Of a stretch of 64,000 nucleotides of DNA, positions 38,356 to 41,300 are shown one piece after another; within the stretch, counting starts at the first letter, position 1; each line of letters opens with the position of its first letter. The notes below the pieces were generated by a model, which worked only from the letters and a program-made list of their open reading frames with translations, was not told the DNA's origin and searched no databases. Source of the stretch: Thunnus maccoyii (Eukaryota; Chordata; Actinopteri; Scombriformes; Scombridae). The stretch is taken from assembly GCF_910596095.1 (NCBI RefSeq), contig NC_056543.1, forward strand, positions 18,710,042 to 18,774,041. Direction: 5' to 3'. Both the position numbers and the translations under genes were made by a program.

Positions 38356-41300
38356 ATGGAGGTGAGGTTGTCTGAAATGTTGCGAATAAAAACACGGCTG
38401 TGTGTTAAATGCATTAAAGTCACAGTTGCTCTGTAACATATACGTGACTCTGGCGGAGATTTTCACGGCGTAGTGTTGTAATTCGCTGCTTCTCTGTGAA
38501 GATTAAAAGCTGTTCTCGTTAGCTAGCGCAGCAGCAAAGCTAATGGTGGTCTCCATTATTGGGGTATAACGTCACTGTTTCAGCTGACTGTCAAATTCAA
38601 CATTGTTGTTGGATTTCTGCAACCCTCATTACTAGCCACAGCAGCTGGATTAACTGTATCTTTTGGTTGATAGCACAGTGTCAACCTACGACATCCCCTG
38701 AAATGAACTACAAGCTGTCTGCCAATGCTAGCTAGGCCGCTCAGGCAAACTAGGCCTATTGTAAAGTTAACCTGTTTTTATGAATGACAGGCCTCAGCCT
38801 GGCGATTTTCCAGTACCAGATGTCATAATTTAGAAGCACTGGGTTAATTTATCAGCCTAATGTTGCTTGATGAGATAGTTTATTGTTAGCTTGGTCTGCC
38901 ACCACAACAGGAGTGAAGGTAACGTTACGCCCTGGCATTAAGATCATTTAATATGTTGAAGTTGCAGATATTTACATGTATTTGCAGATTTTTTTCAAGT
39001 GCAGGATCACAGTAGCGTTATGTGACAATGCTGTCATGTTTCTACAGTAATTAACGGTAGTGTCATTCACAGCTACGATGTGTGTTTTCTTGTGTTGCAT
39101 AGGACCGTGAGGCCAAAGAACCCGAGCAGCTTAGGAAGCTGTTTATTGGGGGTTTGAGCTTTGAAACCACAGAGGAGAGTTTGCGAGCCCATTTTGAGCA
39201 ATGGGGAACACTCACGGACTGTGTAGTATGTATTTTATATAATAATAATAGTAGAAGAATTAATAACAGTAACTTACAAATATGGCTAAACTGCTGTCAC
39301 TACTATTGTGTTTGACTTTGTTGTGTCTAGGTGATGAGGGACCCCAACAGCAAGCGATCAAGAGGGTTTGGCTTTGTAACATACTCCTCTGTAAGGGAGG
39401 TTGATGACGCCATGAAAGCAAGGCCTCATAAAGTCGATGGGCGGGTTGTTGAACCGAAGAGGGCCGTGTCCAGAGAGGTAAATAAACCCTGACCTGAAGG
39501 CAGATGTCATAGAAAGGTTACGGTTTGGTATGTGTTGGTCTGTGCTCATTGACACTCTTATTTCAGGACTCCAATAAACCAGGTGCCCATCTGACGGTGA
39601 AGAAGATCTTTGTCGGTGGTATCAAGGAGGACACTGAGGAGTACCATATCCGAGAGCATTTTGAGAAATACGGAAAGATTGAATGCATTGACATCATGGA
39701 GGAACGCTCCACCGGGAAGAAGAGAGGATTCTGCTTTGTCTCGTTCGATGATCATGACACTGTAGATAAAATTGTTGGTATGTGGTTGTTTAGATTTCAG
39801 AGTTAGTTAGACATTAAGGAAACATCAGGGAATGTTATGAATCTCTATTGTTTTTCCTTTTTTTCCTCTTACAGCCCAGAAATACCACACAATCAACTTC
39901 CACAACTGTGAGGTCAGGAAAGCTCTCTCAAAACAGGAAATGAGTTCCATGTCCAATAACAGGGGTAAGCACACCATCACATGGAGAATAAAATAATAAT
40001 TACTATTATTGCACATTCTGTATGCAACTGACAATTCACCCTCCTTTATATCAGGCAGGAGTGGAGGATCTGGAAACTTCATGGGCAGAGGTGGTAATTT
40101 TGGAGGTGGTGGCAACTTTGGCCGTGGTGAGTAGCATTTGCATAACAAATGAAAGTGTCATTGACCTTATCCACACTAAAGCAGGTACATTTGATAGTTA
40201 TATTTACGTCATAAGGGGTTGGCAGAACAAGTTTTGCCTCCACACTGAAATACCAAATGAAGTAAAATGCTTTTATCTCTTTGTTTTTGTTTTGATTTTT
40301 TTTTACTAAATGGTGGTCATAACCATCTTGTAAAACCGGTTACTCAGTCTTTGCCTGGACAGGGTGAGGCTCTGTGGGTGTTTGGTGATCTGCCATATTG
40401 GCACACAAAAGAAGTGGAAACAAAGTCACTGATGCCAGAAATGTGTTGTCTTAGCATTGCTGCTATGCGGAATTATTTTGTTATATTTTTGAAATGTTGA
40501 CCATCATATGTCAGTTATCTCAAAACGCTCTGTTGTCTTATTCAACCTACCAAGCAAGAACAGCATTTTCAGATTTTATCCACCAGAACATGTTTTTTGT
40601 TGAAAACATCACCTTAGTGTTGATAACAAGACCAGAGCAGAGATTGTTTTTCAGATGAGCCTGCATTAATGTGGATACGGTCTCAGCTGTGACAAGGCTG
40701 CAAGATTACACAAATTGGTCACATTTTTTATGTTAAGCTATGTTTATGCTAATGTATTTTAATCCTCTTGGTTTCCTAGGTGGCTATGGTGGAGGACGAG
40801 GTGGTTATGGTGATGATTTTGACAATGGTGAGCAGTTGTAAAGCAAGGATATTAAATGCATTACATGACCATGACAGTAGTCATGGTCATGTAATGCATT
40901 TAATATCCTTGCTTGCTTATGTAACAACTGTGTTGTGTTTAAGAAAATATTTTGCAACAGTGTTATGTTAGTGCCACTCCACTGTAATTAATGAGGTCCT
41001 GTTGTATGTTTGCATTTTTTTTACTGTTATAGGTCCAGGAGGAAATTATGGTGGAGGACCAGGTTATGGAGGAGGCCGAGGGGGCTATGGAGGTGGTGGT
41101 GGTGGCCCAGGGTATGGAAACCAGGGTGGTGGATTTGGTGGCAGCTGTGATGGAGGTTACGGGAGTAATGACGGAGGTAAATGTGTTACTTTCTCCAGAA
41201 ATTAAATACTAGGCTCCTGAAATTAAGCCTTGCCTTAAAATTGTCACTTATATCTTTAGGATATGGAGGGGGTGGAAATTACAATGACTTTGGAAACTAT

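Follow-up and report, generated by a model that had tools for sequence, protein, structure and literature searches.

A perfect 35-bp hairpin in an intron of an hnRNP A-type gene of Thunnus maccoyii as a probable footprint of a local template switch

Introduction

The closest described relatives of the structure reported here are hairpins attributed to template switching, a process described as producing perfect stems in one event and as turning near-perfect inverted repeats into perfect ones (PMC8794818, PMC7954356). Long palindromes are no rarity in vertebrates: in a human catalogue, a mean of 797 palindromes of 60–80 bp per chromosome is reported under a rule of eight perfect central bases and at most 4 mismatched pairs (PMC7680136), and since this definition is loop-free, its comparison with a looped hairpin is only rough.

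RNA pairing close to a 5′ splice site is known from two described systems. In mammalian hnRNP A1, the intronic element CE6 masks the donor of exon 7B, which results in skipping (Blanchette and Chabot 1997, as described in PMC12046027). In MAPT, a hairpin overlaps the donor of exon 10 and blocks U1 (PMC9977717).

In the current study, we analysed a window of 64,000 nucleotides from Thunnus maccoyii (contig NC_056543.1, positions 18,710,042 to 18,774,041 of the forward strand; all coordinates below are those of the window), in which a perfect hairpin lies shortly behind a donor site. Among the matches listed in a search of open-licence papers, no title or abstract opening described this hairpin.

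Results

The conceptual joining of nine exons between 39103 and 41557 gave a single open frame of 335 aa, comprising two RRM stretches and a glycine-rich tail, with eight mapped introns of 105, 89, 97, 90, 653, 205, 83, and 125 nt. The best solved relatives of this product were hnRNP A1 chains (best E 5e-124), followed by hnRNP A2/B1; because no hnRNP A3 chain was present among the best 60 of the 206 structure-chain matches, this search does not separate A1 from A3. The neighbouring minus-strand frame at 45447–46772, whose top match was to Nrf2 (NFE2L2) chains (E 1.2e-43), is a large nfe2l2 exon including the bZIP domain. A further minus-strand frame at 48190–48537, for which Pfam returned no matching family, presumably resembles the Nrf2 Neh2 region. 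In the human genome, NFE2L2 adjoins HNRNPA3. The host gene is of the hnRNP A type, in agreement with the placement of the hairpin in an hnRNP-type gene by the earlier note, and the putative name hnrnpa3 rests on resemblance to A3 sequence together with the adjoining nfe2l2 exon.

The exon, the intron, and the parts of the hairpin are as follows.

40780..40827, plus strand: 48-nt in-frame exon before the hairpin intron, about 16 residues of the glycine-rich tail (conceptual splicing)
40828..41032, plus strand: 205-nt GT-AG intron with the hairpin (donor ATG/gtgagc, acceptor tactgttatag/)
40841..40875, plus strand: 5′ arm of the perfect hairpin, 35 nt (inverted-repeat listing)
40876..40879, plus strand: loop AGTA, 4 nt (sequence read-out)
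40880..40914, plus strand: 3′ arm of the perfect hairpin, 35 nt (inverted-repeat listing)

The hairpin is real as sequence. Its arms are exact reverse complements over 35 of 35 nt, so the perfect arms and 4-nt loop that the earlier note had described at 40841–40914 were found again with zero mismatches. The distance to the splice site was likewise recovered, as the donor gtgagc begins at 40828 and the stem at 40841, after 13 nt of intron; the stem ends 118 nt short of the acceptor junction. The 74 nt make up 36% of the intron, matching the description of a hairpin that fills a third of it, and the intron without them would measure 131 nt, near the six short introns of the gene.

Perfect inverted repeats with arms of at least 14 nt and loops of at most 200 nt number four in the window, with arms of 35, 17, 16, and 15 nt, the runner-up (17 nt) lying at 627–667. 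At the base composition of the window and with loops of 0–20 nt, about 6e-15 perfect 35-nt inverted repeats are expected by chance. The locus thus carries the sign by which a template switch is recognised, namely a nearby reverse-complement copy, here at a spacer of 4 nt, that is longer than chance allows.

With all 70 arm sites free of mismatches, the hairpin could be as old as about 4 to 14 million years, counted from the last homogenising event and with neutral rates assumed to be 1e-8 and 3e-9 per site per year. Because a neutral hairpin of up to this age could stay perfect, the active maintenance considered in the earlier note is unnecessary for zero mismatches. Perfect arms neither require selection nor prove extreme youth.

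The flanks of the stem contain two short motifs that could pair with each other.

40833..40839, plus strand: CAGTTGT, left strand of a possible outer helix of 7 bp, separated from the perfect stem by 1 nt
40924..40930, plus strand: ACAACTG, right strand of this possible helix, separated from the perfect stem by 9 nt

At the right junction, the sequence is GCTTGCTT, in which GCTT is doubled. The outer helix and the doubled GCTT fit an older quasi-palindrome, although the hint given by the helix is weak, since 213 of 20000 random flank pairs (about 1%) equal it; its gaps are unequal (1 and 9 nt), and it is unused in the minimum-energy fold of a 281-nt context.

The same flanks bear on the idea that a small foldback transposable element of the MITE type landed in the intron. 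MITEs are numerous in fish genomes, the unit is near-palindromic, and a possible 5-nt direct repeat, TGTAA, stands at its edges (40837–40841 and 40920–40924); however, 3371 of 20000 random places show a 5-nt repeat at the same offsets. A blastn search of 40830–40930 against the window found no second copy of the arms in these 64 kb, the best match beyond the hairpin itself being 12/12 or 15/17 nt (E 0.68). In addition, a unit of 74–78 nt would be very small for a MITE, and it is unusual for such an element to be paired all the way up to a loop of 4 nt. Taken with these points, an insertion of this kind is a rather improbable origin.

Searches outside the window covered two collections that are not meant for fish and are silent on fish: in viral_contigs, a scan with a DNA pattern returned 0 matches, and a protein scan with a 70-aa RRM exon gave 2 pattern matches in viral_contigs and 51 in genome_contigs, with 0 confirmed relatives. 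Elsewhere in the window, we observed a 34-nt tandem repeat at 3862–4025 (4.8 copies, 93% matches), two 87-nt direct copies at 4258–4344 and 10788–10874 (79% identical, perhaps a dispersed repeat), and an inverted repeat at 58163–58261/58490–58588 with 99-nt arms, 82% complementary and 228 nt apart. The last is enclosed by a second inverted pair at 57565–57627/58644–58706 (63 nt, 89%), possibly an old transposon.

Fold-back errors in sequencing or assembly also yield exact inverted copies, and a fold-back chimera fixed in the consensus would look like the present hairpin. A consensus normally derives from many reads, however, and the intron, whose splice sites are usable, shows nothing else out of the ordinary, which makes an artefact decidedly unlikely.

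Folded alone, the 74 nt formed all 35 pairs at a predicted −57.4 kcal/mol. The 281-nt context retained the whole stem, with a minimum energy of −109 kcal/mol and a z-score of −8.96 (200 shuffles), and the donor gtgagc was placed in an 8-nt loop closed by a 5-bp helix next to the long stem. The predicted stem neither pairs with the donor nor buries it. Donor openness, taken as the mean unpaired probability over the nine positions from −3 to +6, was 0.616–0.627 with the hairpin against 0.595–0.602 with the hairpin deleted, 0.538–0.539 when the 3′ arm and loop were deleted, and about 0.455 (sd 0.14–0.15) when the 74 nt were scrambled 40 times in each of three contexts. The fractions of scrambles at or below the real openness were 0.9, 0.8, and 0.775 in the three contexts (40 each), which are not independent: the longer ones return the same numbers because a strong helix, 40764–40777/41070–41083, closes off the region.

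The mean conceals a shift between positions. In the 281-nt context, donor positions −3 and −2 were predicted to be more paired with the hairpin (unpaired 0.11 and 0.07, against 0.66 and 0.47 without it), whereas +5 and +6 were more open (0.95 and 0.50, against 0.46 and 0.16); most intronic donor positions were predicted to be more open in the presence of the hairpin. A hidden donor, one of the possibilities raised in the earlier note, was not supported, since predicted mean openness is about equal with and without the hairpin and is no lower with the stem present. The converse proposal, that the stem exposes the donor, is supported only mildly: most intronic positions are more open, the mean hardly changes, and −3 and −2 are more paired. 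The stem may keep the intronic part of the donor slightly freer; a mild helpful effect, which would speak against strict neutrality, is possible because scrambles are less open and because +5 and +6 fall without the hairpin.

The helix that closes off the region involves the acceptor of the 48-nt exon. Its pyrimidine tract at 40764–40777 was predicted to pair with the next exon at 41070–41083 with probabilities of 0.96–1.00 in two contexts, as a 14-bp duplex including some G-U pairs. At −27.5 kcal/mol, this is the strongest pairing of any of the eight acceptors with any later exon; when the next exon was shuffled, 10 of 300 sequences reached this value, a modest result given that eight acceptors were tested after the fact. 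Such pairing would mask the acceptor and enclose the exon, together with the hairpin intron, in a loop, and we regard it as a lead only. Pyrimidine tracts readily pair with GGN glycine codons, and co-transcriptional splicing may be faster than the fold.

These predictions bear on whether the hairpin is a selected splicing element that alters whether the glycine-rich exon is included, with an effect like that of CE6 of mammalian hnRNP A1 exon 7B. The exon has 48 nt and is in frame, so that its skipping would preserve the frame, and it may be weakly defined because its own acceptor is predicted to be paired with the next exon. Its donor agrees with the U1 consensus at 5 of 9 positions, joint lowest among the 8 mapped donors, and the intronic openness noted above points the same way. 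Against this, the pairing of the stem is internal and does not involve the donor, and removal of the stem hardly shifts mean donor openness. The acceptor pairing also seems to be independent of the hairpin: with the hairpin deleted, the three longer contexts all gave the same donor values, as expected if the enclosing helix persists in the deletion, and it is from these donor values that independence was read. We consider a selected splicing element unlikely.

With hnRNP A1 exon 7B, the present locus shares the protein family and the presence of intronic RNA pairing downstream of an exon that encodes part of the glycine-rich tail, whereas CE6 is described as masking the donor (PMC12046027) and the Thunnus hairpin is self-paired with the predicted donor about as open as before. 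Because the Thunnus stem is self-closed, any mechanism would differ from that of CE6. The MAPT exon 10 hairpin is similar in lying near a 5′ splice site but is described as overlapping the donor and blocking U1 (PMC9977717), while the Thunnus hairpin starts after 13 intron nt.

The stem could also be read as a young microRNA or other small-RNA precursor, since its 35 bp come near the stem length preferred by Drosha. Precursor loops, however, usually exceed 4 nt, and an Rfam scan of the whole window at gathering score placed nothing on the hairpin, so that a known RNA family was rejected for it. Under lax cutoffs, the region 40700–41100 gave 21 matches, including 11 microRNA models, the best at 28.3 bits against a gathering score of 85; we take these to be generic to any perfect hairpin. 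New microRNA hairpins attributed to template switches are on record, MIR633 among them (PMC8794818), and on balance a small-RNA precursor is highly improbable here. The only match at gathering score in the window was a mir-148/mir-152 precursor at 55738–55810 on the plus strand (82.1 bits, cutoff 53), lying about 14 kb downstream from where the hnRNP coding sequence ends and past the mapped nfe2l2 pieces.

Discussion

The hairpin was probably left by a local template switch during replication, maybe starting from an older imperfect palindrome, and is most likely neutral or nearly so. The published template-switch hairpins (Monttinen and Loytynoja 2022, PMC8794818; the great-ape pair-HMM study, PMC7954356) are alike in their perfect, stem-forming reverse-complement repeats a few nt from the source and in the possible conversion of a quasi-palindrome, and the earlier suggestion of a template-switch inversion at a replication fork fits both this literature and the sequence. 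The published events were inferred against ancestral or related sequences (PMC8794818, PMC7954356), whereas the Thunnus hairpin is read from a single sequence.

Under a local template switch, the growing strand would fold back on itself during DNA replication, about 35 nt of its own strand (or of the sister strand) would be copied in reverse, and the strand would then rejoin its template, so that an exact inverted copy would lie at a distance of 4 nt; an older imperfect palindrome may have been the starting point. The intron would tolerate the resulting stem, which begins beyond the U1-pairing region of the donor and would not pair with the donor. When folded, the stem would bring the splice sites closer, with about 131 nt between them in place of 205.

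What was read directly at this locus are the perfect arms, their position, the predicted fold, and the predicted openness of the donor; the mutational mechanism, the recency, and the neutrality are what we infer. The functional suggestions made for the hairpin have no direct support, and the overall reading is that of a fresh example of an already known mutation type, probably recent and probably neutral.

A bolder possibility, which we hold to be very doubtful, is that one replication slip created a new splicing switch in hnrnpa3. The stem would then hold a weak donor accessible and the splice sites near each other, counter the predicted masking of the acceptor, and tune the 16-residue glycine-rich exon, as a fish counterpart of CE6 reached by another route.

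If the hairpin is recent, it would be a clean natural case of a perfect RNA stem made by one mutation, in a gene for an RNA-binding protein and of a size suited to a minigene. If it is neutral, it would add one more template-switch event that is datable through relatives. If it alters exon inclusion, a new splicing switch would be tied directly to a mechanism of mutation.
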